From positions 3,038,001 through 3,102,000 of the forward strand of contig NZ_CP044523.1 in assembly GCF_008831545.1 (NCBI RefSeq): 64,000 nucleotides of DNA, given 5' to 3'. Below the pieces are notes generated by a model. The model saw only the letters and a program-made list of their open reading frames with translations. It did no database searches and had not been told where the DNA came from. This DNA is from Halorussus halophilus (lineage in GTDB: Archaea; Halobacteriota; Halobacteria; Halobacteriales; Haladaptataceae). Position 1 is the first letter of the stretch; every line of letters begins with the position of its first letter. Positions 22,396 through 55,534 of this stretch are shown in pieces. Position numbers and translations under genes: made by a program.

Positions 22396-22650
22396 ATGCC
22401 TAACAAACAGCTACGAGACTGGCAGAAAGTCGTAATCATGGCCTGTGCCCCGTTCTTCGGGAACCGAGCCATCTCGAAGAAGGCGAACTGCTCGGTCTGG
22501 GCCGTTCGGAAGTACCGCAAGAAGATGAAACAGCAGCGAGGAACCCTCGACATCGACGAGGACGACGACGCCGTGGTCACGCCACAGGGGATGTCGGTCC
22601 TCGACGACATCGTCGAGTCCGGTCTCGAAGAGGAACAGGGCCGTATTTAG
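22396..22650 (+). CDS. Small helix-turn-helix protein at head of tail cluster
   Basis: 84 residues. The basic helical first half (LRDWQKVVIMACAPFFGNRAISKKANCSVWAVRKYRKKMKQQ) has the spacing of a helix-turn-helix in which ISKKANCSVWAVRKYRK is the turn and recognition helix; the second half is very acidic. The pI contrast with the neighbouring genes and the position ahead of the tail genes suggest a regulator, though small terminase-like HTH subunits look similar. A T-rich tract follows. Confidence 0.6.
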   Translation: MPNKQLRDWQKVVIMACAPFFGNRAISKKANCSVWAVRKYRKKMKQQRGTLDIDEDDDAVVTPQGMSVLDDIVESGLEEEQGRI

Positions 22651-22684
22651 GGTCTGACGGTCCAATTCAGTGCCCGCATTGTAC

Positions 22685-22690
22685 TTTTTT
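22685..22690 (+). terminator. T-rich archaeal terminator candidate
   Basis: A run of six T residues 35 bp after the stop of the HTH gene and before the promoter at 22763, in an otherwise GC-rich region. Poly-T tracts are sufficient for archaeal intrinsic termination. Confidence 0.4.
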
Positions 22691-22762
22691 CGGGGATAGC
22701 GAGGTTCTGAGTCACGACTTTGTTCTGAATCAGTCTGAAATCACACCGACGCGGAAAACCAG

Positions 22763-22769
22763 TTTATAT
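22763..22769 (+). promoter_or_regulatory. TATA box for gene at 22792
   Basis: TTTATAT is 23-29 bp before the ATG at 22792; leaderless transcription predicted. It may be the first promoter of the tail operon. Confidence 0.6.
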
Positions 22770-22791
22770 CCTACTGTGTCTTGATTGAACC

Positions 22792-23154
22792 ATGTCGCTC
22801 AGCAACGACGAAGAGACCGACCGAACCTACGCGGTACAGTTCGTCCTCGAAGTAGACGATAGCGCGTTCGCCGACTTCGTCCTCGACGCAGTGCCCGGCC
22901 CGGAGACCCCCGGCGTCGATGCGGCCGGGCACAAGACGTACGTAGACGAGACGGGACTCGGAAACCCAGTCGTGGGCGCGTCCGTGCCGTTCGCCGACCG
23001 AGGCGACGCCGAATCGCTGTACGAGTCCGTCCGAGAACTGGACGGCATCGACGAGTGTACCGAATCCGGCAGTTTAGCGATCCGTGAACACGGCGGCCCC
23101 GCCGCGGAGCGGTTCGAACCACCCATCGTCGCTCGGACGGCGTGCCCTAACTGA
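22792..23154 (+). CDS. Hypothetical protein at start of tail cluster
   Basis: 120 acidic residues. Begins with a strand (TYAVQFVLEVDD), then PGPETPGVDAAGHKTYVDETGLGNPVVGASVPFADRGDAESLYESVREL. Predicted alpha/beta, no membrane segment. It lies directly upstream of tail genes and starts from its own promoter. No recognised domain. Confidence 0.65.
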   Translation: MSLSNDEETDRTYAVQFVLEVDDSAFADFVLDAVPGPETPGVDAAGHKTYVDETGLGNPVVGASVPFADRGDAESLYESVRELDGIDECTESGSLAIREHGGPAAERFEPPIVARTACPN

Positions 23155-23172
23155 CCAAACCGCATTTAGAAC

Positions 23173-23232
23173 ATGGCTAAAGTACAGTATGTGTATGTTC
23201 CACAATACGTTCCCGAGCCAGCACGGAAGTGA
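23173..23232 (+). CDS. Possible 19-residue micro-ORF
   Basis: ATG to TGA encoding MAKVQYVYVPQYVPEPARK. It lies 18 bp after one tail-cluster gene and stops 6 bp before the next ATG. The composition (Tyr, Val, Pro, Lys, Arg) is unlike the acidic host average. It may be a translated leader that delivers ribosomes to 23239, or a chance frame. Confidence 0.3.
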   Translation: MAKVQYVYVPQYVPEPARK

Positions 23233-23238
23233 CCGCGC

Positions 23239-23820
23239 ATGTTGACCCACCAAGAGCGAATCAGGTTGACGAACAGTCTTCCGACCTCCTACAGCGTCAC
23301 GTCCAACGGGACGACGTACACCTACGACTTCCAGACGTGGTGGGACGACGAGAGTCACACGAGAAGCTACCCCGAGGCAATTCTCGGGTGGAACGAACGA
23401 AGCGTCGAAAAGACCGACGAGCAGTCGATGGGCGGCGTGGCCGAAATCGACGAGCGAGAGGGCGAGAACGCGTACGAGTACACGTACGCGACGCGACTCT
23501 ACGACGAGTTGTCCGTCACGTGCCTCGTCGAAGACGCGACGAACGCCGACGACGTGCCGCCGAAGCAACGTGCCGAGTCGTTCGCACGGCGACTGCGTGA
23601 ACATTTCCAGTACGATTTCGACCAGAATAGCGCCGGTGCGAACGGTGAGCGTCCGGTCGTCGCGCGACTCTCGAAGTCGCCGGTTCACGACGCGCACGCG
23701 GACCCCTCGGGGACCGACGTGCAGGAGTACGAGTTCCGCGTTCGACTCCACTACACCGACGAACACACCGAGACGGTCGAGACAGTCGAGGACGTAGAGT
23801 ACAGCTTCGACGCGGACTGA
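23239..23820 (+). CDS. Putative tail terminator/tail completion protein
   Basis: 193 residues, alpha/beta: MLTHQERIRLTNSLPTSYSV, a strand-rich middle (TTYTYDFQTWWDDE), and a C-terminal segment of alternating strands (VQEYEFRVRLHYTDEH...VEDVEYSFDAD). It lies immediately before the sheath gene, the position of the tail terminator or completion protein in P2-, Mu- and PBSX-type loci. The size fits. In a headless particle such a protein would cap the tail instead of joining it to a head. The call rests on synteny. Confidence 0.5.
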   Translation: MLTHQERIRLTNSLPTSYSVTSNGTTYTYDFQTWWDDESHTRSYPEAILGWNERSVEKTDEQSMGGVAEIDEREGENAYEYTYATRLYDELSVTCLVEDATNADDVPPKQRAESFARRLREHFQYDFDQNSAGANGERPVVARLSKSPVHDAHADPSGTDVQEYEFRVRLHYTDEHTETVETVEDVEYSFDAD

Positions 23821-23970
23821 GCGGTCCGGTCGCAGTACCAGCCAGGTCGTCCTACCGAACTTCTTCTCGCGATTGCGCGATAGTTCAACGGGCAGATTCT
23901 CCCCGCCGAACTCGATTCCCGACTCCTCACACCCACCAAAAACCACCGTTCCAGGTGTTGTCGGAAAACT

Positions 23971-23980
23971 GATATATAAG
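23971..23980 (+). promoter_or_regulatory. TATA box before sheath gene
   Basis: GATATATAAG, the strongest TATA element in the left half of the cluster, 31-40 bp before the ATG at 24011. Probably drives the main structural operon. Confidence 0.65.
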
Positions 23981-24010: not shown

Positions 24011-25363
24011 ATGCCAGTTTCAGTAGTCAACATCGACCTGTCGGCCTCGACCGGCGCGACGGCGAAGCCGACGTACAACGACATCGCACTGATCGGTCAT
24101 TCCACGACCGAACCATCTGTCGGGTACAACAACGCGAAGCGATACTCCAGTCCCGACGACGTGGCCAGCGACTTCGGCGACCAGAGCGACGTGTACACCG
24201 CGGCGCAGGCGCTCTCCGAAATGGGCGTCGAATCGTGGGTCGCGGCGTGTGCAGCAGAGAAGACTGCCTCCGGCGAACTGCTGGGCGGCGACGCGTCCAG
24301 TACGAGTACGGGCACGATTTCGAACGTCCCCGTCCACGACGACACGGACGCAGTCAGCATCGCAGTAGACGGCACCGACAAGACCGTCGTGCCGAAGACA
24401 GCCAGTCCGCCGGACGCGAACGAGTCGCCCGCGACCGACGAAGCGTACGTCAACTTCGAGACGGGCGAAGTCGTCACCGGCGAATCAACCAGTGGGAGTG
24501 CCTCCGGCATCGTCGCCGACTACCACTACCTCGACTGGTCGAGTCTGAAGCCCGAACTCGAACCGCTCGGCATCGACCTGTTCGTCCTCGCTGACACCCG
24601 CTGTGAGCGCGAGCACGTCGGTAACCTCGGCGAACTCGTCTCGTTCGCCGGGTCCATCGACGCCGCAGTCGTCGCCGCGCACATGAACGGTTCGCAAGCG
24701 GCCGACGACCAGACCGCACTCCAGACCGCACAGGATGTCGCGGGTGCGGTCCCGAGCGGCGACCTCATCATGGCCGCCCACAAGTCCAGCGACGACGTCG
24801 CGGCGTACATCGCTGGCCAACTCGGCGTCAACCCTGCGTGGTTCGACCCGTTCTGGGACGGCGACGGCTACCCCTTCGACACCGGTCTCTACCGCCGCTC
24901 GCTAGTCGGCGACCCCGGCACCACCGAGACGTTCGAAGGCGGCGACGAGAACGGCAACGGCCCGTCGAACGCCATCATCTCCGTGGACGGCACCCTCGTG
25001 CTGTCGAACTCGCTGACGACCGCCGGCGCGAGTTCGAACTACCGCTACTTCGACGTGGGCCGCACCGAGGCGTTCATCGCCAACGAAGCACAGGAGGCGC
25101 TCAAGAGCCTCCGACTCGGCAACGACCAGATTCCGTTCACGAAGGACGGCCGCTCCCAGATTCTCGGCGCGATTCGTGGCCGACTCCAGCAGTACGTCGG
25201 TTCCAACGGCGCGCCGCTCTCGGAACTCGAAGTGACCGCACCGACTATCGACCAACTCTCGGACACGGACAAGTCCAACCGCGTCTTCCCGGGTATCACC
25301 ATCCAGGGAACGCTCGCGAGCAACGTCCACGAGTTCGGCGTCGAGCTGAACGTCCGCGCCTAA
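24011..25363 (+). CDS. Contractile tail sheath protein
   Basis: 450 residues. N-terminal strand MPVSVVNIDLSAS followed by GATAKPTYNDIALIGHS, a central insertion domain (about 110-170, Thr/Ser rich), then an alpha/beta core with DLFVLADTR and YIAGQLGVNPAW, and a conserved C-terminal domain with YRYFDVGRTEAFIANEAQEALKS, NDQIPFTKDG and the terminal strand GTLASNVHEFGVELNVRA. This matches phage tail sheath proteins of the DUF2586-like group. The terminal strands would form the inter-subunit mesh. Its presence with a separate tube gene defines a contractile tail. It is followed after 13 bp by the tube gene. Confidence 0.85.
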   Translation: MPVSVVNIDLSASTGATAKPTYNDIALIGHSTTEPSVGYNNAKRYSSPDDVASDFGDQSDVYTAAQALSEMGVESWVAACAAEKTASGELLGGDASSTSTGTISNVPVHDDTDAVSIAVDGTDKTVVPKTASPPDANESPATDEAYVNFETGEVVTGESTSGSASGIVADYHYLDWSSLKPELEPLGIDLFVLADTRCEREHVGNLGELVSFAGSIDAAVVAAHMNGSQAADDQTALQTAQDVAGAVPSGDLIMAAHKSSDDVAAYIAGQLGVNPAWFDPFWDGDGYPFDTGLYRRSLVGDPGTTETFEGGDENGNGPSNAIISVDGTLVLSNSLTTAGASSNYRYFDVGRTEAFIANEAQEALKSLRLGNDQIPFTKDGRSQILGAIRGRLQQYVGSNGAPLSELEVTAPTIDQLSDTDKSNRVFPGITIQGTLASNVHEFGVELNVRA

Positions 25364-25376: not shown

Positions 25377-25766
25377 ATGCCAAACAAAGAATACGACGCC
25401 CGTGAGATCTCCATCACGGTTGACGGCGAACAGATTGCTGACTTAGACAGCTTCGGCTACGACCAGTCGAAGGCCCACGAACTCGAACGCACCCTCGACG
25501 GCGGGAGCGTCTGGGTCAAGGGCACCGGCGAGTTCTCCGGTTCCTTCGCAGTGAAGGCGACTTCCGACAACGTACCGATGCTCGAAGACCTCTTCCAAGA
25601 GGGCACGGTCTTCGACATCACCATCTCCTACGCCGAGAGCGAACCGCGCTCGGAGAGTACGTTCGTGGACTGCATGCTGACGGACTACGGTCCCTCGGAC
25701 TACGAACTCGACGGCGTCCCGACGGTCGAGGGCTCGTGGGAAGCCGCCGAAGTCACTCACCGATAA
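25377..25766 (+). CDS. Tail tube protein
   Basis: 129 residues, nearly all beta strand (REISITVDGEQIADLDSF, GSVWVKGTGEFSGSFAVKATS, TVFDITISYAESE, GVPTVEGSWEAAEVTHR), the simple beta-barrel expected of a tube protein of the XkdM/FII kind. It lies directly after the sheath and before the assembly chaperone, the invariant order in contractile tails. It forms the inner conduit that is driven out on contraction. Confidence 0.8.
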   Translation: MPNKEYDAREISITVDGEQIADLDSFGYDQSKAHELERTLDGGSVWVKGTGEFSGSFAVKATSDNVPMLEDLFQEGTVFDITISYAESEPRSESTFVDCMLTDYGPSDYELDGVPTVEGSWEAAEVTHR

Positions 25767-25784: not shown

Positions 25785-26267
25785 ATGAACGACGATACCG
25801 TACTCGAACGACGCGACGCGAGCGACCTCGAAACGAACGACGAGGTCGAACAGACCGTAGACGAGATGCTCGACACGGACGACCTCGAAACTGGGAAGTC
25901 GGGCGACGAGGGGGCTGCCGAGGCATCTACCGGGGGTAACGAATCCTCGGCAGCCGACCCCGAGAACTTCGACTTCGAGAACCAAGAGTGGACGCTCGGC
26001 GGTAAGCGAGAACCCGAGGTCCACGAGATTCAGGGGATGAAGTTTCTGTTCGAGGAACCGGAGAACGACGACACCGTTCTCAACGAACTCGACCAGGTCG
26101 GCGACGACGACCGCAGCGCACAGATGAAGGCGCTAGTCCAACTCGTCGTCGCCAAGCCCGAGGTCACAGACGACCGCTGGGAACAGATGTCCTTCGCAGC
26201 CAAACTCGGTCTCGCCGGACAGGCCGCCGAGTTCCTCGGACTAGGCGAGGGATTTCTGAACGAGTAG
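25785..26267 (+). CDS. Tail assembly chaperone (G-type product)
   Basis: 160 residues. A long acidic disordered N-terminus (1-75) precedes a compact domain with HEIQGMKFLFEEPENDD and helices LNELDQVGDDDRSAQMKALVQLVVAKP...WEQMSFAAKLGLAGQAAEFLGL. Located between tube and tape measure, where phages encode the chaperone pair gpG/gpGT. The adjoining -1 frame is open and coding-like (next entry), so this is likely the short product of a frameshift pair. Such chaperones bind the tape measure and guide tube polymerisation. Confidence 0.75.
   Translation: MNDDTVLERRDASDLETNDEVEQTVDEMLDTDDLETGKSGDEGAAEASTGGNESSAADPENFDFENQEWTLGGKREPEVHEIQGMKFLFEEPENDDTVLNELDQVGDDDRSAQMKALVQLVVAKPEVTDDRWEQMSFAAKLGLAGQAAEFLGLGEGFLNE
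26249..26255 (+). promoter_or_regulatory. Candidate -1 frameshift site
   Basis: G GGA TTT in the reading frame of the chaperone, four codons before its stop. It resembles the lambda G GGA AAG site in its first half, but the A-site codon would mispair after slipping, so the exact site is uncertain. Downstream, CCGG(ATGGGC)CCGG at 26268-26281 could pair as a short hairpin. Confidence 0.35.
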
Positions 26268-26551
26268 CCGGATGGGCCCGGTCTGCCGCTGGCCGCATCA
26301 CCATCTCGCTCGCGCTCAGGCTGAACAAGCCAATCGAGGAGATTGCGGCGTGGCCGTGGCGTCGGCGATACGCCTACGCTATCGCCATCGGGGCTCATCA
26401 GGAGGAACAGCGGTCGAACAGACCTAATCCGAACACCGGAGACGTCGGGGGTTCGACGGGTTCGGCTCCCGCATCGCCGACAGCGGCCTCGAACGGGGTC
26501 CACCCGTCGGTGGCCAGACACGAACACGTCGTCCGCGTCAAGGACGACTGA
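26268..26551 (+). CDS. -1 frame extension of tail assembly chaperone (T domain)
   Basis: An open frame one base back relative to the chaperone, continuous across its last codons and stop and ending with TGA at 26549-26551. It has no ATG, GTG or TTG until near its end, so it cannot be initiated independently. It encodes about 94 residues after the chaperone stop: a helical part with ITISLALRLNKPIEEIAAWPWRR and YAYAIAIGAHQEEQ, typical of phage tail T domains, then a Pro/Ser/Gly-rich tail. The classical gpGT fusion made by -1 frameshifting explains all of this. The fusion would be about 250 residues. Alternative: a true mutation that split an ancestral gene. Confidence 0.65.
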
Positions 26552-28733: not shown

Positions 28734-29309
28734 ATGAACGCAGCATTCGCACGACCGACGGCGGCGACGGGCGGCGAGACGACGATGCTCGTCGGCGACG
28801 TGACGCTGACAAACGTAACGAAGGTGAACGAACGAGGCGGCCAGCACGCGCCGACGAAGAAGACCGAGAAGGGCTTCGCGTACGGAACGTCGGTCGGCGC
28901 GGAACCGGTCTCGGTGAAGGTCGAGGCGGTGGTCGAACCGCGGACGTACTCGCGGCTCGCGGACATGCGCGACGCCGACGAGCCGTTTCCGGTGGCCGTG
29001 GGCTTCGTCTCGCTCGGCCGGAGCAAGCTGGACGACCTGCAGATCGACCAGCAGGCGTCCTCGACGAGTCACTACTCGGTTCGCATCTCGGTGACCCAGA
29101 TTCAGGAGGCCCGCACCGGGACCGCGACGTTGGTCGTCGATTCGACCGACGGCCGCGGGAACGGGTCGGTCTTCGCCGGAAGTTCCGACGCGGCCGACGT
29201 GACGCTGGCCCGTTCGCAGGAGAACTCCACGGGCGACGACGGCTCCTCGGGCGGCGGCTGGAGCCTCGACGACACCGTAAACGACCTCGCTGACGCGATT
29301 GGTTTCTGA
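28734..29309 (+). CDS. Baseplate-associated protein (XkdP position)
   Basis: 191 residues. The middle is beta-rich (MLVGDVTLTNVTKVN, EPVSVKVEAVVEPRTY, PFPVAVGFVSLG, HYSVRISVTQIQEA) with a Gly/Asp-rich linker and a C-terminal helix. In PBSX-like loci the gene after the tape measure is a LysM-linked baseplate protein; LysM is not visible here, which is sensible in an organism without peptidoglycan. Its stop overlaps the next start (TGATG). Function inferred from position. Confidence 0.55.
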   Translation: MNAAFARPTAATGGETTMLVGDVTLTNVTKVNERGGQHAPTKKTEKGFAYGTSVGAEPVSVKVEAVVEPRTYSRLADMRDADEPFPVAVGFVSLGRSKLDDLQIDQQASSTSHYSVRISVTQIQEARTGTATLVVDSTDGRGNGSVFAGSSDAADVTLARSQENSTGDDGSSGGGWSLDDTVNDLADAIGF

Positions 29310-29650
29310 TGACTGTCGAAACGATTCCCATTCCGACCGAGCAGGCGAAACGCAAGGAGCCGATTCGGCTCGAAACGACCGAACTCGACGCGTGGCCCGG
29401 CCATCGCTTCGAAATCCGATTCGACTGGAACAGCGAGCTACAGCGCTGGATACTCCGGGTGAGCCACGAGAACACCGACCGGGGGTTCGTCCGTGCCCCC
29501 GCGTGTCTCATGCGGGAGTACACACTGGACCCCTACGTCACGTTCGTCCTCTTCGACCCGGCGAACAAAGCCGAGCGGGTGACGCCACAGAACCTCGGGA
29601 GCGAAGTCGTTCTCGGGGTGTTCCCGCGCACGGCGGGTGGTCGAGAATGA
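29309..29650 (+). CDS. Baseplate plug protein (DUF6983-like)
   Basis: 113 residues. The pattern HRFEIRFDWNSELQRWILRV, RAPACLMREYTLDPYVTFVLFDP and GSEVVLGVFP matches the small all-beta phage baseplate plug family, in which an FxIxLxWN strand and a W-containing strand are diagnostic. It probably closes the tube/hub interface. It overlaps its upstream neighbour by 1 base and a micro-ORF by 4 bases. Confidence 0.7.
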   Translation: MTVETIPIPTEQAKRKEPIRLETTELDAWPGHRFEIRFDWNSELQRWILRVSHENTDRGFVRAPACLMREYTLDPYVTFVLFDPANKAERVTPQNLGSEVVLGVFPRTAGGRE

Positions 29651-29691
29651 CGAAAGAGGATAACCAGATGCTGGAGACCGGTGACCGCTGA
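29647..29691 (+). CDS. Linker micro-ORF (14 residues) between plug and hub
   Basis: ATG overlaps the plug gene stop (ATGA) and its TGA overlaps the hub ATG (TGATG). Encodes MTKEDNQMLETGDR. It fills the 40-base gap exactly and could relay ribosomes from one gene to the next. Confidence 0.4.
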   Translation: MTKEDNQMLETGDR

Positions 29692-30521
29692 TGGTCTGGA
29701 AGCAGTATCGCCGCGTAGACGTCGGCGAACTCAGCATCGAGGACCTCGACGTGGACATCGAGGTCGAGATGAGCGAAGACGGTGAGTTACTCTTCGACGT
29801 GACCATCTGGAACCTCACAGACGCCTCGTGGGAGCGAATCGGCAAGGGCGACGAGTGCCGCATCGTCCTCGGGTGGGAGAACGGTCCCTCCAAGAGCGTG
29901 GTTCACGGTGTCGTCCGCAAGAAGAAGAAGGAAGCCGACGGCAACGACGTGAAGTTCCGGTTGCAGGGGAAGGACCGGACCGACGAGCAGACGAGCCGTC
30001 GCTTCTCGAAGACGTGGTACGGCAAGGCACCGGACGGCGTGGCGGCCGACATCGCGAACCAAATCGGCCTGACTACGGGCGAGGTCGAGGCGGTCGGCCA
30101 GCAACTCGACAACAACTGGATGATCACGAAAGACAAGCCCGTCCGCCACTGGCTCGACAGACTCGTCGAGGAAGCCCAGAAGCGGACCGACACCGCGTGG
30201 GAGTGGTTCGTGGAGGCCGGAAAGCTGTACTTCGTGACCAAGGACGGTCGCAAGGAAGAGGCCGTCGAGTTGTCCTTCGACAACACGCTCGTCAGCATCG
30301 GCGAGGCAGAAGGCGACTCGAAGGCCGAAGAGAGCGGCTTGCAGTTCGAAGCGCTCTGCGAGCCACGGCTCCGACGTGGCGGTTCGGTCGTCGTGAACAC
30401 CGACCGCTACCAGGGGCCGTACTCGCTGACCAAGTATCGATACGTCTCGGACTCCGAGACGGGAGACCACTACGTCGAGGGGCGTCTCGCGCCGCTCGAC
30501 GTCGAATACACCGTACAATGA
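29691..30521 (+). CDS. Baseplate hub protein (gpD/XkdQ/gp27-like)
   Basis: 276 residues: an N-terminal beta-barrel-like region (LSIEDLDVDIEVEMSEDGELLFDVTIWNL...VVHGVVRKKKKEADGNDVKFRLQGKDR), helix-rich middle with ADIANQIGLTTGEVE and HWLDRLVEEAQKRTDTAWEWFVE, and C-terminal strands. This is the hub layout in which two barrels sit on the tube axis and hold the spike trimer. Located before the spike gene. Assignment by architecture and synteny. Confidence 0.65.
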   Translation: MVWKQYRRVDVGELSIEDLDVDIEVEMSEDGELLFDVTIWNLTDASWERIGKGDECRIVLGWENGPSKSVVHGVVRKKKKEADGNDVKFRLQGKDRTDEQTSRRFSKTWYGKAPDGVAADIANQIGLTTGEVEAVGQQLDNNWMITKDKPVRHWLDRLVEEAQKRTDTAWEWFVEAGKLYFVTKDGRKEEAVELSFDNTLVSIGEAEGDSKAEESGLQFEALCEPRLRRGGSVVVNTDRYQGPYSLTKYRYVSDSETGDHYVEGRLAPLDVEYTVQ

Positions 30522-31570: not shown

Positions 31571-31575
31571 ATCAG

Positions 31576-45487: not shown

Positions 45488-45562
45488 GTGATACGTGGGC
45501 GCGATTGCGCCTTCGACTCTAGCGACGAGTCCACCGACTTCACGAACGAAAGAGTGGCAAAG

Positions 45563-46642: not shown

Positions 46643-46643
46643 C

Positions 46644-47681
46644 ATGACCCAACTCGACGCAGCAGCAGTACTCGAACGAGCAGAATCGGAACGCAAACAC
46701 GTCCGGTCGTTGCTACGAGACGCGGCGACCGTGTTTCACGAACGAGAAGGCGACCTGTTCCCTCGGCCGGAGGCCGTCGCGCTACTGGCCGAGGAACTCG
46801 ACAGTTCGCGCGAGACCGCCGACCGCGTGTTGAGCGGTCTCGTCGGCGACGCCGTAGACCCGGTCGTCCAACTGTCGGCCGACGGCGAGCGGAACGTCGG
46901 CGTCATCGACTACCACGAACACGAGTTCTGGTACGGCTACACCGACTACCACGACATCGACGGCCAGCGAAAGAAGGGCGTCTGTGCCCAGTGTGTCGCC
47001 GAAGCGTCCACCGACGACGAGGTGGTCTACGTCGCGGAAGGCGAAGGCGAGTTCACCGAAGGAGCGACCTGGGACGCCATCGAAGCGCGGTTGCAGACCC
47101 ACTTCGAGCGGGCACACCCGACTGTCGAGGCGGTGGACGTCCAGACGGGCGCGACGCTAGCGTCCGGGTCCACCATCGCGGGCAACGCCATCATCCACAC
47201 CGGCAACGCCTCCGCGAAGGCAGACGCCGACATGGTCGATGGGATGCACGCGAGCGACCTCGCACCGGTCTACGACGACGGCTCGACGAAGTGCCACATC
47301 GTGGCGACCGAACGGTTCGGCGCGGAAGGCTCCTCGACCTCTTCGACGGGGTACAACACGATTGCGAACTCCGACATCACGTTCAATCCCGACGACTACA
47401 AGGACAGCGACGGGAACCTCTACTGTCGGCTCTACGGCCACCTCAAACACTGGGACAACTCCGGCACGACGTACGCCCGGATGTACCGGCAGAACGCGGC
47501 CTCGTCGGTCAATGGCACCGAAATCTCGGTCAGCGCCAACGACGGATGGGGCGTCGGAGACAGCGGGTGGACGAGTCTGAACGATAGCGGTTACGACTCG
47601 TATCACCTCCAGTTGAAGACCAACGACGGCTACGCCGGGGAGTACAACAGCGTCCTGCTCATGCTGGGGGTGCCAGCATGA
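46644..47681 (+). CDS. Fibre paralogue 4: shared N-terminal module plus unclassified tip
   Basis: 345 residues. The most divergent copy of the module (about 20-200): DAATVFHEREGDLFPRPEAV, DRVLSGLVGDAVDPVV, CAQCVAEASTDDE, HFERAH, and IIHTGNASAKADADMVDGMHASDL, the last part being the VDGxHASDL motif found before many phage fibre tips. The tip (about 220-345) is beta-rich with TSSTGYNTIANSDITFNPDDY and no family I recognise. The stop overlaps the next start by ATGA. Confidence 0.75.
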   Translation: MTQLDAAAVLERAESERKHVRSLLRDAATVFHEREGDLFPRPEAVALLAEELDSSRETADRVLSGLVGDAVDPVVQLSADGERNVGVIDYHEHEFWYGYTDYHDIDGQRKKGVCAQCVAEASTDDEVVYVAEGEGEFTEGATWDAIEARLQTHFERAHPTVEAVDVQTGATLASGSTIAGNAIIHTGNASAKADADMVDGMHASDLAPVYDDGSTKCHIVATERFGAEGSSTSSTGYNTIANSDITFNPDDYKDSDGNLYCRLYGHLKHWDNSGTTYARMYRQNAASSVNGTEISVSANDGWGVGDSGWTSLNDSGYDSYHLQLKTNDGYAGEYNSVLLMLGVPA

Positions 47682-48193
47682 TTGGCGACGTAGACCCCGA
47701 CGACTTCGAAGCGTTGACCGACGACGGCGACTGGTTCCTCTCGGTCGCGGTCCCCGACGAGACCCAAGCCGTCGCCGAGACGCTCCACGAGGACGGCGAG
47801 TCGTACCGCAACGTCGGGAAACTCCTCAATCACCACCTGTCGGACCTCGACGAAGGAGCAGACGGCCTGCGACTCTACCGAGTCCGACACGCGTCGAAAC
47901 CCGAACACCAAGGCGTGGTCGCGGTCGTTCCCAACAGTCACTGGTACGAACCTATCACCGACATCGAGTCGAGCGTCGGGTCGTATCAAGCGATGGTCCG
48001 ATTCTACGGCGTGCCGGACGACTCGACGGTCCTCGATTTGGTCAAGCAAGAAGTCACCAAGCGCGGGTGGGCCGATTCGAGAATCGTCACCAACCACGAG
48101 TACGCGACGGCCGTCGAATCGAGTCTCGACGCGGACGCCGAGTTCCAAGCCGCGTCCGACGAACGAACAGCAGGATACTACGTCTGGGAGTGA
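47678..48193 (+). CDS. Hypothetical protein following fibre genes
   Basis: 171 residues, alpha/beta. Regions: DWFLSVAVPDETQAVAETLHEDGESYRNVGKLLNHHL, LYRVRHASKPEHQGVVAVVPNS, YQAMVRFYGVPDDSTVLDLVKQEVTKRGW. It overlaps fibre 4 by 4 bases. Fibre genes are often followed by their assembly chaperones, which makes that a reasonable guess, but no motif supports it. Confidence 0.65.
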   Translation: MIGDVDPDDFEALTDDGDWFLSVAVPDETQAVAETLHEDGESYRNVGKLLNHHLSDLDEGADGLRLYRVRHASKPEHQGVVAVVPNSHWYEPITDIESSVGSYQAMVRFYGVPDDSTVLDLVKQEVTKRGWADSRIVTNHEYATAVESSLDADAEFQAASDERTAGYYVWE

Positions 48194-48198
48194 CCACG

Positions 48199-48618
48199 AT
48201 GGAGTTCTACGAAATTAGATTCACCACGAGAGACGACAACGCGAAAGACGCGACCGTCAGAGCGCGGGGCGCGGCAGAGGCAATCGACCGTTCGATGAAG
48301 ATTCTCGGTGCGACGGTCCATCGCCGACCAGCCGACCACCGCGACGCGACGGCCGTGATGGCAATCGTCTACGACGCCGACGACGCCGACGCGACCATCG
48401 AGGAGTTCGCTGGCGCGATGGCTGTCAACTACGGCTACCCGCTGGACGAGTATCGCGCGTTCGGCGACAGCACGCTCTCGCTGAAGAACGACGCCGACGC
48501 CATCGAAGAGTTCGTCGGCGACGCACTCGACGACTCGGAGTTCAGCATTGACCTCCCGTCGGACGACGGAGCGAACGACGACGAAGAGACGTTCACCATC
48601 GGTGAGGACAATGAGTGA
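48199..48618 (+). CDS. Hypothetical acidic protein following fibre genes
   Basis: 139 residues, ferredoxin-like alpha/beta pattern (MEFYEIRFTTRDDNAKDATVRARGAAEAIDRSMKIL ... ATAVMAIVYDADDADATIEEFAG) and a very acidic C-terminus. It overlaps the glycosyltransferase start by 8 bases. Function unknown. Confidence 0.65.
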   Translation: MEFYEIRFTTRDDNAKDATVRARGAAEAIDRSMKILGATVHRRPADHRDATAVMAIVYDADDADATIEEFAGAMAVNYGYPLDEYRAFGDSTLSLKNDADAIEEFVGDALDDSEFSIDLPSDDGANDDEETFTIGEDNE

Positions 48619-49834
48619 GTTCAAAGACCCCTTCTCGGAATCCAGCGTCGGTATCGTCTGTGGCAGTCTGATGATTCAGGGGGGTGCCGAAGAGATCGTC
48701 CGCGCGCTCGCGGTCGATTTCAACGCACCGGTGTACACCCTCTCGTACGACCCCCAGCGGTTCGACAAGCAGTTCAACGCGGACATGGGCCACCGAATCC
48801 GCAAGGTCGCCAAGGACAACGAAGACGAGGACCTGGACGACGAAGTAAACACGGACCAATTCTTCGCTCAGTCGCCGATTCCAGCCGTCTTGATAGAGGA
48901 CTTGGAGAAGGTGGACGTCGAGAAGTTCTCCACGGACGCGCTGGTCGCCACCGACATGCACGGCACCATCCTCGCGGAGATGACCGGGCTCCCGTACGTC
49001 ACCTACATGCACCACGCCGGGAAGATGTGGAACGACTACTTCTGGGAGATGTTCGACAACACGGAGGGACTCCGAGAGAAGTTCAGTTTCCTACGAGAAC
49101 GGTGGGGCAACGCACGTCGAATGAAGCGTGCGACGAAGAAGGCCGAACACATCGTCACGAACAGCGAGCGGACGAAACACCACACGAACGAGACGTGGAA
49201 CGTCTCTCGTGGTCGGATGAACGTGGTGTATCCGGCCATCGACACCGGCCTGTTCACGCCGGGCGAACCCGAACGAGACGTTCTCGAACTCGACAGCTAC
49301 TTCCTCGCTCCCCAGCGACTGGAAGCCTACAAAAACGTCCACGTGCTGGTCGAGGCGGCCAAGATGGCCGAAGAACACCTCGTCATCGTCGGCACCGGTA
49401 CGCTGGAAGACTACGCTCGCCGCGAGGCACAGTACTCGCCGTACGTTCACACCCTCGGTTACGTCGAGGAAGAGACGCTCCGCGACCTCTATCGAGGCGC
49501 GAAGGCGACCTTGCAGGGAACCATGCGCGAGGACTTCGGCATGGTCCCCGTCGAGTCGATGGCCTGCGGGACGCCGTGTCTGCTCCCGGCCTCCGGTGGC
49601 TTCCTCGAATCGGTCGGCGAAGGGTTCGAGGCTGACCCGAAACCACCCATAGAGACCGAGCGCGGGAAACTGTTCGACCCGAAAGGGTTCGACCACTACC
49701 AACTCGCGGGCGACTTGCAGAAGTTCGACTCCGAGGAGTACGACCCCGACGCCATCAGCGAACACGCCCAGCAGTTCGCCCGCGAACGCTTCATCGAACA
49801 GATGACCAAAATCGTCGAGCGACACCTGCTATGA
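48611..49834 (+). CDS. GT4-family glycosyltransferase
   Basis: 407 residues with the GT-B fold: N-terminal GGAEEIVRALAVDF glycine-rich loop, MHHAGKMWNDYFWEMF acceptor-side region, and C-terminal donor domain with FLAPQRLEAYKNVHVLVEA and the E-x7-E motif REDFGMVPVESMACGTPCLLP. It transfers a sugar from an activated donor, cytoplasmic. Inside a tail operon and overlapping its neighbours, it may glycosylate fibres or remodel host glycans to avoid self-targeting. Acceptor unknown. Confidence 0.85.
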   Translation: MSEFKDPFSESSVGIVCGSLMIQGGAEEIVRALAVDFNAPVYTLSYDPQRFDKQFNADMGHRIRKVAKDNEDEDLDDEVNTDQFFAQSPIPAVLIEDLEKVDVEKFSTDALVATDMHGTILAEMTGLPYVTYMHHAGKMWNDYFWEMFDNTEGLREKFSFLRERWGNARRMKRATKKAEHIVTNSERTKHHTNETWNVSRGRMNVVYPAIDTGLFTPGEPERDVLELDSYFLAPQRLEAYKNVHVLVEAAKMAEEHLVIVGTGTLEDYARREAQYSPYVHTLGYVEEETLRDLYRGAKATLQGTMREDFGMVPVESMACGTPCLLPASGGFLESVGEGFEADPKPPIETERGKLFDPKGFDHYQLAGDLQKFDSEEYDPDAISEHAQQFARERFIEQMTKIVERHLL

Positions 49835-49881
49835 TCCCCGACGACTCCGTCGGTCACCGCCTGCCCACAGAGTACGCATAG
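49831..49881 (+). CDS. Linker micro-ORF (16 residues) before phosphatase-superfamily gene
   Basis: ATG overlaps the glycosyltransferase stop (ATGA) and TAG abuts the next ATG (TAGATG). Encodes MIPDDSVGHRLPTEYA, spanning the 47-base gap exactly. Confidence 0.4.
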   Translation: MIPDDSVGHRLPTEYA

Positions 49882-51027
49882 ATGACGACGAACGTCCCGC
49901 TCGCCGAACCGATAGAGCGCGTCTTCGTCGTCACCGTGGACTGTCTGCGGTGGGACTACCACGACGAGTACCGGGAGTTGTATCCCAACGGCGTCTGGTA
50001 CCGCGGGACGCCGCAGGCGACCTACACCCCGACGTCACACGCCAGCCTGTTCACCGGACTTAACCCGCCACGACACGGCGTCTTCGACTTCGGTCACGAG
50101 TACGTCGGCGACGAGAGCCTCTTCACCGTGACCGACGCAGCGAGTCGCTCTCGCATCACGCGGGACGGCGACGTAATCGCAGGGTTGAACGCCACCAACG
50201 AACCGATAGTCGAGTTCCGGAAGTGGTTCGCGCCGCGACTCGACAACGCCAAGCACGACGACGAGTTCCGCGAACCCGAGGACGCAGACGCACTGCTCGA
50301 CAGTCTGGACGACCACGACGTGACGTTTCTCCACGATTGGGTCGTCCACGGGGCCGACCGCGGCCATCCCGGCGCGTGGACTTACACCATCTCGGAGACC
50401 GACCCCGCCGAGAATCACCGGCGCTACCGCAAGAGCCAGCAGATGAGTCTGTCCGCCCACGAGAACCTCTTGTCGGCCCTTCGAAATCGTGGCCTATTCG
50501 AAAACACGCTGTTCGTCGTCTGGGGCGACCACGGCGAGTGCCTGAACGAACAGCCAGACTGCGACCTCGGGCACGCTCACGACGCACACGAACCGTGCTG
50601 TCGCGTCCCGATTGGGTTCTGTTCGCCACTGTTCGAAGCGACGACAGTAGACCACGAGACGAATCCCCGGTCGGTGGACGTGCTACCGACGCTCCGGTCG
50701 GTGATGCGCCACGCTGGCCTCAGATTCGACGACCCCGACCACGAGATGGAGGGCATCGACCTCACCACGTTCGAGGGGCGACTGGCGGGCTACACGATGA
50801 GTCCGACGACGCCGAAGTCCGGGACCGGCGACGCCGTTCGCGGCCCCAAGTGGTGCCTCTACAACGGCGACGTCCGACAGCTCTACCGCACCCGTCACCG
50901 ACCGGACGGCGACGCTGGGTACGCACTCGCCGAACCGACCGACGACGAAGCCGTTCGAAGACGGTACCAGTCACTCCTCGACCGCGTTCGAGGCGACGCA
51001 GACACCCTCGTCCTCAACCGAGAGTAA
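49882..51027 (+). CDS. Alkaline-phosphatase-superfamily enzyme A (sulfatase-like fold, Thr nucleophile)
   Basis: 381 residues. The metal-binding VTVDCLRWDY is at about 17-26 (Asp20), and the active-site segment TPTSHASLFTGLNPPRHG at 49-66 aligns with the sulfatase motif CxPSRxxxxTG, but position 49 is Thr, not Cys/Ser, so a formylglycine sulfatase is unlikely and a phosphatase or phosphoglycerol transferase type reaction fits better. WGDHGE near 213 supplies the second metal site. No signal peptide or membrane segment, unusual for an enzyme acting on surface polymers. It has a close paralogue at 52027. Confidence 0.78.
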   Translation: MTTNVPLAEPIERVFVVTVDCLRWDYHDEYRELYPNGVWYRGTPQATYTPTSHASLFTGLNPPRHGVFDFGHEYVGDESLFTVTDAASRSRITRDGDVIAGLNATNEPIVEFRKWFAPRLDNAKHDDEFREPEDADALLDSLDDHDVTFLHDWVVHGADRGHPGAWTYTISETDPAENHRRYRKSQQMSLSAHENLLSALRNRGLFENTLFVVWGDHGECLNEQPDCDLGHAHDAHEPCCRVPIGFCSPLFEATTVDHETNPRSVDVLPTLRSVMRHAGLRFDDPDHEMEGIDLTTFEGRLAGYTMSPTTPKSGTGDAVRGPKWCLYNGDVRQLYRTRHRPDGDAGYALAEPTDDEAVRRRYQSLLDRVRGDADTLVLNRE

Positions 51028-51032
51028 GACGC

Positions 51033-51968
51033 ATGCAAACGAACATCACTGCCTGTATCCTGACACTGAACGAAGCATCGCACATCGAAGACACGCTGGA
51101 CTCCGCGTGGCCCATCTTCGACGAACTAGTTATCCTCGACGGCGACAGCGACGACGACACCGTCGCAGTCTGCGAAGCGTGGTGTGACGAACACGGAATC
51201 CCGTTCACGTGTATCGAATCGAGCGAGTGGGAGTACCTCGTCGAGGGACCGGCGACCCAACGCCGCCGTATGGAAGAGCAAGCCAGTTGCGATTACACGC
51301 TCTCTATCGGCGCAGACGTGGAAGTCGAAGTCCTCGACGAGGAGTGGTTCGGCCGGGAGTTCGACCACTACGCCTACGTCCACACCCGTCGGAAGGCGAG
51401 TGGGCGAATCGGCCGCGACTATCGGCTCTACTGTCCGAATCCCGACGAAATCGACGCGGACAAGAAGCGGCCGCGCTGGCGCGGCATCATCCACGAAGAG
51501 ATACTCGACCAACGAGGCCGACACGTCAGCGAAGTGTATCAGGTCGCAGAGGCTCCGATGGTCCACCACCAGCGTCGATTCGGTGCGATGGACGTTCACT
51601 CGACGGCCCCGCACCATCAGCGGCGACACGACACGCGAGTCGGCGGGAACGCTGGTGAGGCGCTGAAGAAACAGCACTACCTGCTCCAGCGGGCACTCGC
51701 CTCTGACCGCCAACGCGCGTGGGTTAGTTCCGTCTACAAGGACTACTACGCGGAGAACCGGGCGATAATCAACCAGCACTGGCAGGAAGTACGCGACCGA
51801 TACGAACTGCCACAGGAAGCGTGGAACCACGACGACGTGGAGGACGTGTCGGAAGTCGGTGGCTGGGACCTCAGTTCCGGCGAACCCATCATGGACTACA
51901 AGTACAACACCGCGGGGTCGTACCTGAGGGACAAGGCGACCAACGCACTCGGAAGTGTCTTCTCGTGA
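51033..51968 (+). CDS. GT2-family glycosyltransferase
   Basis: 311 residues. GT-A fold with N-terminal ITACILTLNEASHIEDTLDSAWPIFDELVILDGDSDD, the classical GT2 start, then a DxD-like IGADVEVEVLDEE, and a long C-terminal helical region (LKKQHYLLQRALASDRQRAWVSSVYKDYY). Related to polypeptide- or lipid-linked-sugar transferases; no membrane segments. The operon of two glycosyltransferases and two phosphatase-superfamily genes suggests a single glycan pathway. Confidence 0.85.
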   Translation: MQTNITACILTLNEASHIEDTLDSAWPIFDELVILDGDSDDDTVAVCEAWCDEHGIPFTCIESSEWEYLVEGPATQRRRMEEQASCDYTLSIGADVEVEVLDEEWFGREFDHYAYVHTRRKASGRIGRDYRLYCPNPDEIDADKKRPRWRGIIHEEILDQRGRHVSEVYQVAEAPMVHHQRRFGAMDVHSTAPHHQRRHDTRVGGNAGEALKKQHYLLQRALASDRQRAWVSSVYKDYYAENRAIINQHWQEVRDRYELPQEAWNHDDVEDVSEVGGWDLSSGEPIMDYKYNTAGSYLRDKATNALGSVFS

Positions 51969-52030
51969 CGACCCCGTCAATCGAGGACGCCGACATCGCG
52001 GAGTTCGGGACTGACCGTTCACCACCATGA
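51965..52030 (+). CDS. Linker micro-ORF (21 residues) between GT2 and second phosphatase-superfamily gene
   Basis: GTG overlaps the GT2 stop (GTGA) and the TGA overlaps the next ATG (ATGA). Encodes an acidic peptide (TTPSIEDADIAEFGTDRSPP after the initiator). Both ends show the canonical 4-base coupling. Confidence 0.45.
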   Translation: MTTPSIEDADIAEFGTDRSPP

Positions 52031-53223
52031 CCACGACCGTTCCTGTAGACGACCGGATCGAGCGCATCGTCGTGATCACCGTCGATTGTCTGCGGTGGGA
52101 GTACCACGAACCGTACAGAGACCTCTATCCGAACGGCGTCTGGTATCGCGGGACCACGCAAGCGACGTACACCCCGACGGCTCACGCCAGCCTGTTCACC
52201 GGGCTGAACCCACCCCGACACGGCGTGTACGCCTTCGGCGACGAATATCAGGGCGAAGAGACGTTACTGAGTGCGACAGAGAGCGCGAGCGCCTCCGCCA
52301 TCACCGACGACGGCGCGGGTCTCGTCAACGGACTGGAACCGGGCGAGAACGTCGAGTTCGACTTCTCGCGATGGTTCCCGGCACGATTAGACGACAGCGA
52401 CGGCGATTCGACGGCCGTTCCCGGTCCAGAAGAGTACCGAGAGAACGTCAGGCAGTTCGGGGACTACGACCTCGTCTTCCTGCACGATTGGCTCCTCCAC
52501 AAGACTGAAGCAAGCGATAGCAGCGACTGGAGTTTCACCGCCGACCAGTCGGGGGACCCCGAGTTCAATCATCGACAGTACCGAAGACAGTTGGCGCTGT
52601 CCGGTGCCGCCCACGAGCAGTTGCTAGCGACGATTCAGGAGATGGGACTGTACGAGAACACGCTGTTCGTCCTCTGGGGCGACCACGGGCAGGCGCTGAC
52701 GAGCGACCCGTTCGGCGAACTCGCACACAGTCACTTCCCCGAAGAGTGCGTCGCACGTGTTCCTATCGCGTTCTGTTCGCCACTGTTCGAGAACGACTCA
52801 GTAGACGTATCGACCAACGCGCGAGCTATCGACGTGCTGCCGACTATCGAGACGATAGCGTCTGGTGCCGACGTACCGATGGATCAGATACCTCACGAGT
52901 ACGAAGGCGTAGACCTCACCGAGTTCGAAGGCGAACTCGCAGGCTACACGATGGGAGGGAGAACCGCGGGAAGCGGTTTCGGCGACGGGGTTCGAACGAG
53001 CGAACAGGCGTACCTCTCTCTCGACACCGACGAAACGCTCCTCCTCGAAACCCGAACGAGTCCCGACCCAGAGGACGGGTATCGACTCCAGCGACGGATA
53101 GACAATCCGGTTCAGAAAGCGAAGTTAGCGAAGTTGTACGAAGAAGTCAGGCGAGAAGAATCAGAACTCGTGCATCGCCGCGAACCGGACACCGAGTGGC
53201 TCGAAGCGATGGGCTACCTCTAA
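52027..53223 (+). CDS. Alkaline-phosphatase-superfamily enzyme B
   Basis: 398 residues, paralogue of the enzyme at 49882 with the same motifs: ITVDCLRWEY (Asp20), TPTAHASLFTGLNPPRHG (Thr49 at the nucleophile position) and WGDHGQ. The middle third and C-terminal (ending in EWLEAMGYL) have diverged. Two copies around a glycosyltransferase suggest different substrates or a heteromeric step. Last gene of the continuous structural series; 250 bp without a gene follow. Confidence 0.78.
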   Translation: MTTTVPVDDRIERIVVITVDCLRWEYHEPYRDLYPNGVWYRGTTQATYTPTAHASLFTGLNPPRHGVYAFGDEYQGEETLLSATESASASAITDDGAGLVNGLEPGENVEFDFSRWFPARLDDSDGDSTAVPGPEEYRENVRQFGDYDLVFLHDWLLHKTEASDSSDWSFTADQSGDPEFNHRQYRRQLALSGAAHEQLLATIQEMGLYENTLFVLWGDHGQALTSDPFGELAHSHFPEECVARVPIAFCSPLFENDSVDVSTNARAIDVLPTIETIASGADVPMDQIPHEYEGVDLTEFEGELAGYTMGGRTAGSGFGDGVRTSEQAYLSLDTDETLLLETRTSPDPEDGYRLQRRIDNPVQKAKLAKLYEEVRREESELVHRREPDTEWLEAMGYL

Positions 53224-53397
53224 CTCGTAACAACGCGAACGTTTCTGCCGCCCAGAATTCGATTTCGGCCCGGAGTGGACGTTTCCGACTAGGGTCGTCA
53301 ACTCGATTTCGAGTATCGGACGTAGCGGTTCGAGGCGGCAATCGTGGCGATTCTCACGGAGTCCGTTCGTCATTTCGAGCCGCACCGTGGAAAACCA

Positions 53398-53406
53398 ATA
53401 TATAAA
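53398..53406 (+). promoter_or_regulatory. TATA box before protease gene
   Basis: ATATATAAA in an AT-rich tract (53391-53420), about 70 bp before the ATG at 53473, which has a Shine-Dalgarno-like AGGAG at 53463-53467. A leadered promoter separates the protease from the preceding operon. Confidence 0.55.
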
Positions 53407-53472
53407 AATTAAGACATAATTGTAGGGGAGGTCGCGTGGACGCGGTGCGGACGCGATTCTTCAGGAGAGTAT

Positions 53473-54717
53473 ATGACACACACGCGAGATTTCGAGGTCC
53501 TCCTCGAACTGGAAAACGTCGTCGGCGTAGAGTACGACGAACGCGACGACCGCGTCGTCGCGTTCGTGACGAAGAAAGTGCCAGAGTCGGAGCTAGACCC
53601 AGACCACGTCGTACAGCGAAACGTCGAGAAGGACAGTGCAGTCGAAGAACTCGGTGAGTTGACCCCGCTGACGGCCGAGAGCGAAGACGAACTACCGGCG
53701 GCCCACGGGATGCGCCAAGACCGCCACCGGCCCGTCGAAGGCGGCGTCAGCGAAGCCAACGCGAACATAACCGCCGGAACGGCCGGACTGTATCCCGCGA
53801 AAGTCGTCGATATCACCGCGGCCGACTGGGACAACAGTGTTTCCGAGGGCGAGCGCGTCAGACTTAGCAACAATCACGTCTACGCGCGAGCGAACGAAGC
53901 AGCCCTCGGCGAGTCGATTCTCCAACCGTCGCCGTACGACGGTGGCGACGAGTCCGATAGCGTCGGGAAGTTAGCTGGCTACGTCCCCATCGAGAACGGC
54001 ACGAGCGTGGACGTCGCCGCGCGGTCGGTCGAAACCGAGCAGGAGGCCACGACGTACCACGACCTCGACGACACCTACCCGACCGGCGTCTACCGAAAGA
54101 ACGCCGGAGACCTCCTCGGCGAAGCAGTCGTCAAGACCGGTCGAACCACCGGTGTCACGGCCGGTGAGGTGAAAGCGACTTCCGCGACCGTCACCGTGCA
54201 GTACGGCGGCGACTTGGGCGCGGTGACGTTGCGCGACCAACTCATCACGTCCCGGATTTCGGAGGGTGGCGACAGCGGGTCGCCGGTGTTCCTCGAATCG
54301 AGTGGCGAACTGCTCGCGGAACTGTTCGCCGGGTCCGCGAAGGCCTCGGTGCTGTGCAAGGCGACGAACATCGAAGCAGAACTCGGAGTGAAACTGATGG
54401 CAGACGACCAAGACGAATCGACCTACGTGGAATCGTTCGACGAAACTGTGAGCATCGAGATGGAAGGACAGGACCTCGAACTGGACGGACTGCGCGGCGA
54501 CAAGCCGAAGGCTGGCGAAGCTATCGAGGCGACCGCCACGGTGTCGGGAAACTACGGCGGTGAGTGCTGGCTCGCCGTCCAAGGCGAGCGGTACACGTTC
54601 ACCTTGGATGACGAGGAGAACGGGTCGCACACCGCGGACGTTCCCGTGACTGTGACTTCACCGGACCGACACCAGCAGTCGTTCGAGGTCGGTATTTCGG
54701 GAGGATACGTCGAATAA
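53473..54717 (+). CDS. Trypsin-like serine protease with C-terminal domain
   Basis: 414 residues. The catalytic triad is His135 (LSNNHVYA), Asp180 (TSVDVAAR) and Ser268 (GGDSGSP). VVKTGRTTGVTAGEV is typical of the NAL1/trypsin-like group. An N-terminal domain of about 85 residues (LELENVVGVEYDERDDRVVAFVTKKV) precedes it, and a C-terminal beta sandwich from about 320 (MEGQDLELDGLRGDKPKAGEAIEATATVSGNYGGECWLAVQGERYTF, in outline) could bind the particle or a surface. No signal peptide. Roles could be maturation of fibres, cargo, or cell release; none is proven. Confidence 0.8.
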   Translation: MTHTRDFEVLLELENVVGVEYDERDDRVVAFVTKKVPESELDPDHVVQRNVEKDSAVEELGELTPLTAESEDELPAAHGMRQDRHRPVEGGVSEANANITAGTAGLYPAKVVDITAADWDNSVSEGERVRLSNNHVYARANEAALGESILQPSPYDGGDESDSVGKLAGYVPIENGTSVDVAARSVETEQEATTYHDLDDTYPTGVYRKNAGDLLGEAVVKTGRTTGVTAGEVKATSATVTVQYGGDLGAVTLRDQLITSRISEGGDSGSPVFLESSGELLAELFAGSAKASVLCKATNIEAELGVKLMADDQDESTYVESFDETVSIEMEGQDLELDGLRGDKPKAGEAIEATATVSGNYGGECWLAVQGERYTFTLDDEENGSHTADVPVTVTSPDRHQQSFEVGISGGYVE

Positions 54718-54785
54718 CTCCGTCTCCGTTTCGTCGGACCGTGGTGGGGGCGGCAAAACGAGTGACAGGACACGAATACTGTATA

Positions 54786-55184
54786 ATGGAAAACATAGGA
54801 GCGATGAAATTCGTAGAACTCGTCGGCATCGGCGTGACGATCTGCAGCACGCTCGGCGGGTTCCTCTACTGGTTCGCGCGCAGTTCCGCTGGGTTGGCGA
54901 CGAAGTCGTACGTCCGAGAGCAAGTCGAGGACGAACTGGACCCGATGGAGACTCGCGTCGAGACAGCGCTGGAACACGCGCGCACGAACGAGACAGAGTT
55001 ACAGGAGCTAAAGGCACTCATCGAGGGGGGAAACAGCCAGTTCGACCAGGGGATGATAGACTTCCTGGAAGAGAACATCGACCGGACGAACGAGATACGG
55101 GACGAACTCGACGAGGTACGCGAGCGCATCACGACACTCAAGTACGACGACAAAATCCGCGAAAAACGACGGGAGAACCGCTGA
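54786..55184 (+). CDS. Membrane-anchored coiled-coil protein (holin-like candidate)
   Basis: 132 residues. One hydrophobic segment near the N-terminus (VELVGIGVTICSTLGGFLYWF, about 10-30) followed by KSYVREQVEDELDPMETRVETALEHAR and further heptad helices to residue 115 and a basic end. The TM-coiled coil arrangement recalls XhlA-type or other phage lysis accessory proteins, in reversed order. A release function would fit its position after the tail operon. Confidence 0.6.
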   Translation: MENIGAMKFVELVGIGVTICSTLGGFLYWFARSSAGLATKSYVREQVEDELDPMETRVETALEHARTNETELQELKALIEGGNSQFDQGMIDFLEENIDRTNEIRDELDEVRERITTLKYDDKIREKRRENR

Positions 55185-55318
55185 GATTCACTGTCGGCTG
55201 TGGACGGCAACTGTCGGACGCTGCGTCGCAGACGGAAGTAGCTAGGTCGAGACGTACCCCAAATCGGTAGCAGAGTCGGGGAAGAGTTTACAACCCCCTG
55301 CGAAATGAACTAAATACG

Positions 55319-55534
55319 ATGCGGGAGCGAACTCCACTACCGCCGAGCGAACAACGTGCCCTCGCGCTACTCGACGCGGCGTTCGAGTCCGAGGAGGGCC
55401 GAACGTGGGAGGACGCCCAAGCCGTCCTCGCAGAAGACGGGTACACCGAAGTCAGCGCAGACGAACTCCTCCAGAGTCTGGAGAATCGCGGCTACATCTA
55501 CACGGTAGAAGGCGACGTGTGGATTACCGAGTAG
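55319..55534 (+). CDS. Small winged-helix-like protein
   Basis: 71 residues: LPPSEQRALALLDAAFESEEGRTWEDAQAVLAEDGYTEVSADELLQSLENRGYIYTVEGDVWITE in outline, a helix-helix-wing pattern with a terminal strand pair (YIYTVEGDVWITE). Likely DNA-binding or a partner-binding wHTH. The stop is immediately followed by the stop of the convergent MATE gene. It may mark the right boundary of the tail cluster. Confidence 0.65.
   Translation: MRERTPLPPSEQRALALLDAAFESEEGRTWEDAQAVLAEDGYTEVSADELLQSLENRGYIYTVEGDVWITE

Follow-up and report, generated by a model that had tools for sequence, protein, structure and literature searches.

Among the weapons of bacteria, tailocins form a major class, and headless contractile tails are kept as R-type tailocins, among them the R-pyocins and diffocins, that kill competitors. 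Within the haloarchaea, the viruses phiH, phiCh1 and ChaoS9 (Vertoviridae) are complete, with heads and an invertible fibre region, and the contractile injection system (CIS) of Halogeometricum borinquense, which resembles a type VI secretion system (T6SS), carries out contact-dependent killing and is thought to act against other haloarchaea (Zachs 2024, PMC11566945). Here we analyse a 64-kb stretch of the genome of Halorussus halophilus (contig C1:3038001-3102000, hereafter the window; 4.45-Mb genome in 4 contigs, estimated completeness 99.98%). It carries a conserved contractile-tail unit that, with a probability of roughly 0.7, we take to be a domesticated headless tail of halovirus origin that serves its archaeal host as an R-type tailocin.

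Like the R-type tailocins, the unit is a headless contractile phage-type tail of the kind carried as a chromosomal or plasmid unit, with an intact core and variable or multiple receptor-binding genes; unlike them it is archaeal and halovirus-derived, has its own promoter box, candidate regulator and glycan-enzyme cargo, and shows no recognised lysis cassette. With phiH, phiCh1 and ChaoS9 it has in common a homologous tail module, collinear from Tco to gpI, at approximately 33-53% identity, although no promoter box occurs in the DNA of these viruses that was scanned. Their tails are its nearest named relatives. HF2, which the original prediction mentioned beside phiCh1 as a halovirus with a contractile tail, gave no sheath match at 1e-5, and an HF2-like origin was rejected on that ground; the nearest relative overall is a 149-kb element of Halobaculum halophilum. 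The H. borinquense system is also a haloarchaeal contractile machine, but it belongs to a bacterial-type CIS lineage with an ATPase and a membrane anchor, and no tape measure or plug was found there, whereas the window unit encodes a tail of phage type that has both of these and many tips besides. In the PDB its sheath profile finds the sheath of phage Pam3 and further structural proteins of phages but not the haloarchaeal Cis2, and no AAA+ ATPase family occurs among the locus proteins scanned, in agreement with the predicted absence of the ATPase of extracellular contractile injection systems (eCIS). Because of these two features the unit is not classed with the haloarchaeal T6SS-like CIS or with eCIS, the latter being rejected for want of an ATPase.

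Results

Gene identities and order, checked with PHROG, Pfam and direct comparison to ChaoS9, confirmed that the contractile tail is complete, with baseplate, tape measure and tail terminator all present. Its genes lie on the forward strand and follow the canonical order: the tail terminator comes first, then sheath, tube, chaperone with its -1 extension, tape measure, a protein weakly resembling Dit, plug, hub, spike, gp25, gpJ, gpI, coiled coil and fibre (Table 1). The sheath is 35-41% identical to those of phiCh1, phiH and ChaoS9, and its start was moved from the TTG at 23873, proposed originally, to the ATG at 24011 because all relatives begin there with MP(V/T)SVV. The predicted -1 extension of the chaperone found support in a homologue of ChaoS9_095 that sits in the -1 frame (open from 26006 to 26551) and in the conservation of this arrangement in all six loci examined, of which only the one in a congener, G015, and that of the Halobaculum virus have the perfect heptamer G_GGT_TTT. 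Scaling by ChaoS9, whose 914-amino-acid (aa) tape measure accompanies a tail of 128 nm (PMC6471424), we predict tails of approximately 100 nm for the window and 88 nm for Halomicrococcus gelatinilyticus (tape measure of 630 aa), in which a related unit was found. The conserved unit, bounded on the left by three small genes (ORF A, ORF B and ORF C) and on the right by a membrane/coiled-coil gene, extends from 21780 to 55184; it begins earlier than the limits first given, 22396-55534, and is slightly longer.

The ChaoS9 genes for terminase, portal, SPP1-gp7, protease, capsid, head closure and neck have no match in the window or in the 40 kb on either side, and the same queries do match in headed relatives; over the same region neither the head genes of the Halobaculum virus, the closest headed relative, nor an integrase could be found. 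In profile searches of the whole genomes of H. halophilus (G000), G015 and H. gelatinilyticus (G018), the TerL, portal and major capsid protein (MCP) profiles, Terminase_6N (PF03237) and the MCP of the Halobaculum virus were all without match. As controls, the TerL profile was positive in 5/6 virus-bearing genomes and the portal profile in 3/6, PF03237 in 6/14 standard controls and the Halobaculum-virus MCP in its own genome, with the qualifications that some control genomes also contributed rows to the profiles and that the ChaoS9-type MCP search was made without a separate control. For the Halobaculum lineage the genome-wide negative depends on PF03237, which picks up the Halobaculum terminase, and on the MCP, because the ChaoS9-type TerL and portal profiles miss the Halobaculum genome. 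The original prediction, which listed terminase, portal, capsid and integrase as missing and named a head module or integrase within a few kilobases of the window as the contrary observation, is thus upheld locally and, for TerL, portal and MCP, genome-wide. Head-tail connectors, which it also listed as not seen, are likewise lacking: Hco and Nep are absent by comparison with ChaoS9. The tail terminator Tco is the sole head-proximal gene retained, and a tail without a head would need it as a cap. The unit yielded no genes for head, packaging, integration or replication, nor the terminase, portal, capsid, integrase or attachment repeats of a functional halovirus or provirus; a gene transfer agent (no head) and a provirus (no head or integrase) were accordingly rejected.

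Two further headless units were found, one on a 359-kb plasmid of H. gelatinilyticus and one in G015, where it is divided at the repetitive tape measure gene across the ends of two contigs. H. halophilus and Halomicrococcus fall into one family-level group, and the headless state with an intact core is kept in three genomes of two genera. All three units have ORF A, ORF B, ORF C and the right-edge gene in common. Core proteins are 60-91% identical among them, with the tape measure protein and fibre more divergent. As predicted for the window, the core genes are unbroken in all three, apart from the contig end that splits the G015 tape measure gene; frameshifts in the core genes of all relatives, which the original prediction had counted as contrary evidence, do not occur. 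The core genes have ratios of nonsynonymous to synonymous substitution (dN/dS) of about 0.07-0.36 by simple Nei-Gojobori counting, values that are rough because synonymous sites are partly saturated; judged from these sequences, the headless unit is kept under purifying selection.

A tree built from seven concatenated tail proteins, with some rows partial, groups the three headless loci in one clade (support 100), whose sister is a headed lineage comprising the circular Halobaculum element and the IMG/VR contig L048. Headed relatives, which the original prediction had counted as contrary evidence if close, therefore do exist, but as a separate and more distant clade, and the closest relatives are headless. 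This sister lineage has tail proteins 44-73% identical to those of the unit, their order kept over most of the core, together with the promoter box, the right-edge transmembrane (TM) protein and ORF B homologues; it differs in having terminase, capsid, connectors, DNA polymerase, ribonucleotide reductase and thyX, and no ORF C in the DNA compared. The Halobaculum element (NZ_CP058532.1; 148,857 bp; L003/L039/L040) is listed as a plasmid and looks like the complete genome of a large halovirus with both head and tail in full. Nothing in the phage collection matches its capsid protein, and its terminase shares only 25-30% identity with those of known phages; the element possibly represents an undescribed virus family. 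Scans of IMG/VR with the sheath gave no relatives, and those with gpJ and tube gave headed or partial ones. Distant sheath homologues adjoining terminase genes were also seen in two other haloarchaeal genomes, G041 (L019-L020) and G196 (L021-L022), apparently in headed proviruses of other lineages.

A TATA-type box, GAAAACYRRTWTATA, precedes both ORF C and the sheath gene and ends approximately 23-32 bases before the ATG. The 64 kb hold three exact copies and one with two mismatches, all on the forward strand and inside the unit (4 matches against 0.12 expected by chance, a count that is not fully independent because the motif was derived from the ORF C and sheath promoters themselves). Both other headless loci have exact copies, and in the headed sister lineage the exact box precedes the head operon and the sheath, tape measure and gp25 genes, with one mismatch before the TM gene; it occurs neither in the scanned DNA of ChaoS9-type viruses nor in 80 kb of chromosome on the flanks of the window. 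This distribution, more than the count in the window, argues for an inherited viral late promoter.

As for the edge genes, neither ORF A nor ORF C belongs to a Pfam or PHROG family. ORF B shares 57% identity with a gene that neighbours the terminase in the Halobaculum element and is possibly of terminase-small-subunit-like origin; it is our candidate for the activator of the unit. ORF C has so far been seen only in headless units, being absent from the viruses searched and present in one of the 391 genomes of an even class-wide sample, that of the window itself; scans of IMG/VR with ORF B and ORF C were empty. Its AlphaFold2 (AF2) model is modest (predicted local distance difference test, pLDDT, 66.9) and ferredoxin-like folds were matched only at E above 0.004, so that such a fold is suggested with low confidence. 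The right-edge protein has a 46% homologue in the Halobaculum virus, there likewise downstream of the promoter box, and is a candidate release factor or anchor. No tRNA occurs in the window, and direct repeats flanking the unit do not exceed chance. Just outside it, at 57135-57962 and beside a MATE transporter gene, lies an RNA-ligase-domain protein (PF09414) with no evident connection to it.

The receptor-binding genes are variable: G015 carries another set of tip genes, and in H. gelatinilyticus the tip genes of the window are all missing. Variation of tips and cargo around a conserved core is the pattern described for tailocin loci whose fibre genes are several or evolve rapidly (PMC10598620). 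The glycan cargo is kept in G015 and absent from H. gelatinilyticus, which has a different cargo including a radical-SAM gene; PADLOC found nothing in the cargo. Taken as annotated, tips and cargo form a theme that fits surface glycans. Seven tip-like genes in two genomes (42966-47681 of the window and L035:13304-16860) share an N-terminal domain and differ in their C-terminal binding domains; the shared domain has helix-turn-helix (HTH)-like and CxxC...H...H zinc-finger-like features, no match in phage or plasmid collections and a poor AF2 model (pLDDT 48.9). Between its glycan and protease genes the G015 unit also has a large insert (L036:4037-11710) of GH99/WbsX-like and related secreted-looking proteins.

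Table 1. Features of the contractile-tail unit, in window coordinates
Feature	Position	Strand	Evidence or comparison
Near-match of promoter box before ORF A	21743-21757	+	two mismatches
ORF A, left-edge gene	21780..22199	+	49-55% over 95 aa in both other headless loci
ORF B, small HTH-like protein	22396..22650	+	79-80% identical in headless loci
Box GAAAACCAGTTTATA before ORF C	22754..22768	+	motif scan
ORF C	22792..23154	+	60-63% in two other headless loci
Tail terminator/completion protein Tco	23239..23820	+	phrog_27147 E 2e-15; 33% to ChaoS9 Tco, E 9e-27
Box GAAAACTGATATATA before sheath	23964..23978	+	kept in headless loci and headed sister lineage
Tail sheath	24011..25363	+	PHROG tail sheath; start moved from 23873
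Tail tube	25377..25766	+	53% to ChaoS9 tube; 90-91% in headless loci
Tail assembly chaperone	25785..26267	+	phrog_27001; ChaoS9_090 homologue
-1 frame extension of chaperone, predicted programmed frameshift	26268..26551	+	homology 26318-26533
Tape measure protein, 720 aa	26570..28732	+	PHROG; comparison with headless loci
Baseplate/tail protein, weakly Dit-like	28734..29309	+	phrog_26818 E 9e-23; PF21821 weak
Baseplate plug (Pam3 gp18-like)	29309..29650	+	PF22479 E 2e-6
Baseplate hub	29691..30521	+	phrog_196 E 7e-28
Spike	30804..31502	+	48% to ChaoS9_125; PF18352 weak
gp25-like baseplate wedge	31567..31935	+	phrog_120 E 2e-19
gpJ baseplate wedge	31932..33206	+	phrog_6 E 7e-50
gpI baseplate protein	33208..33867	+	phrog_1160 E 1e-33
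Coiled-coil, prefoldin-like tail protein	33870..34499	+	PF01920 weak; homologues in headless loci and Halobaculum virus
Main tail fibre	34496..36061	+	phrog_20556; 53-57% in other headless loci
Three LamG-domain tip proteins	36062..42888 (36062-38506, 38531-40912, 41062-42888)	+	PF13385 in 3/3
Four tandem tip genes, common ~190-aa N-terminal domain	42885..47681	+	C-termini differ: LamG, LamG, PA14, unknown
Two small fast-evolving genes	47678..48618	+	35-41% in G015 only
Glycan cargo: GT4, alkaline-phosphatase-superfamily, GT2, alkaline-phosphatase-superfamily	48605..53223	+	PF00534, PF01663, PF00535, PF00884
Box GAAAACCAATATATA before protease and membrane-protein genes	53390..53404	+	motif scan
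Protease-like protein	53473..54717	+	phrog_20754 E 3e-32; 67% in G015
Right-edge protein, one TM helix and long coiled coil	54786..55184	+	60-67% in headless loci

Discussion

At the level of sequence the unit has what defines an R-type tailocin, save an identified lysis or regulatory cassette, and the archaeal tailocin-like reading put forward originally is supported by the lack of a head nearby or genome-wide and by closest relatives that are headless, with an intact core under purifying selection. We envisage that an ancestor captured the tail genes of a large myovirus among the haloviruses, whose lineage would now be represented by the Halobaculum element, and that the promoter box, tail terminator and late membrane protein were retained while head, packaging and replication genes were lost. 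Upon induction, for which ORF B is the candidate activator, capped contractile tails would be assembled in the cell and would leave it, perhaps via lysis aided by the membrane protein encoded at 54786. The LamG, PA14 and fibre tips might then bind glycans or S-layer glycoproteins of related haloarchaea, and contraction would push the empty tube through the envelope and depolarise the target cell; killing, release and glycan targeting are all deduced from gene content. The glycosyltransferase/phosphatase cargo may alter the surface glycans of the producer and so prevent self-binding, which is the weakest step, a role of the cargo in self-protection being a guess. A more ambitious version, in which the units form an undescribed archaeal tailocin family, independent of bacterial tailocins and of CIS/T6SS, with an ancestral promoter box driven by ORF B, exchangeable glycan-binding tips and glycan-editing self-immunity genes, is tentative, and we would sooner bet against it than for it.

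Several points weigh against the tailocin reading. The instances number only three (3/28 genomes of the family), and the saturation of synonymous sites makes the selection estimates rough. Conserved synteny at one chromosomal site, which the original prediction had proposed to look for, was not borne out, as the outer flanks of the three headless units are unrelated; nor could an empty site be identified beside the leucyl-tRNA synthetase gene in 10 congeners, and the insertion site is not definable because the regions of these congeners align with the window only up to 19821. No lysis cassette is recognisable in the unit, where the shared promoter box, ORF B and the one-TM protein are only candidates for lysis and regulation; some tailocin-type loci also have neither lysis cassette nor dedicated regulation (PMC10598620).

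Among other explanations, a T6SS-like use, in which the tail would stay in the producer, anchored by the TM/coiled-coil protein at the right edge, and fire on contact, is unlikely. That protein does have both a TM helix and a long coiled coil, with the shared promoter box upstream, and contact-dependent killing by a CIS is established in haloarchaea (PMC11566945), but its gene is also carried by the headed lineage of the Halobaculum virus, for which an anchor would be pointless, and the many fibre and tip genes are as expected for free particles. Moreover, a scan for TM helices, which covered part of the locus genes and did not include a search with Hbor_38620 itself, gave only this one-TM protein and no six-TM anchor of the Hbor_38620 type, and the locus proteins scanned for families include no AAA+ ATPase. 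Delivery of the cargo as an eCIS-like payload, inside or attached to the tail and destined for the target cell by injection, is suggested by its variable nature and 3' position, as in eCIS loci, and by the different cargo of H. gelatinilyticus with its radical-SAM gene; we consider it very unlikely, given the missing eCIS ATPase, the lack of a recognisable toxin domain, the resemblance of the cargo to glycan-synthesis enzymes and a phage-type tape measure that fills the tube.

The viral descent, lost head genes and sporadic distribution would suit a functionless provirus remnant in decay, to which we nevertheless give very little credence, since the same headless state recurs in three genomes with an intact core, low dN/dS and conserved promoter boxes. 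It is scarcely credible that the unit is one half of a provirus that has been split, or a source of tails completed by the heads of a helper virus: the tail terminator makes head docking possible in principle, but the connectors Hco and Nep are missing and the TerL, portal and MCP profiles have no match in any of the three host genomes.

The archaeal contractile weapon shown so far is the T6SS-like CIS of bacterial-type ancestry, no archaeal tailocin descended from archaeal viruses appears in the open literature searched, and we found none of this kind in open-access full texts (subscription papers and preprints lay outside the scope). If the tailocin reading is true, the domestication of a virus tail into a weapon arose independently in Archaea, and the compact conserved promoter box with its candidate activator, together with the release genes, would offer a handle on late transcription in archaeal viruses and on release, both of which are poorly understood.

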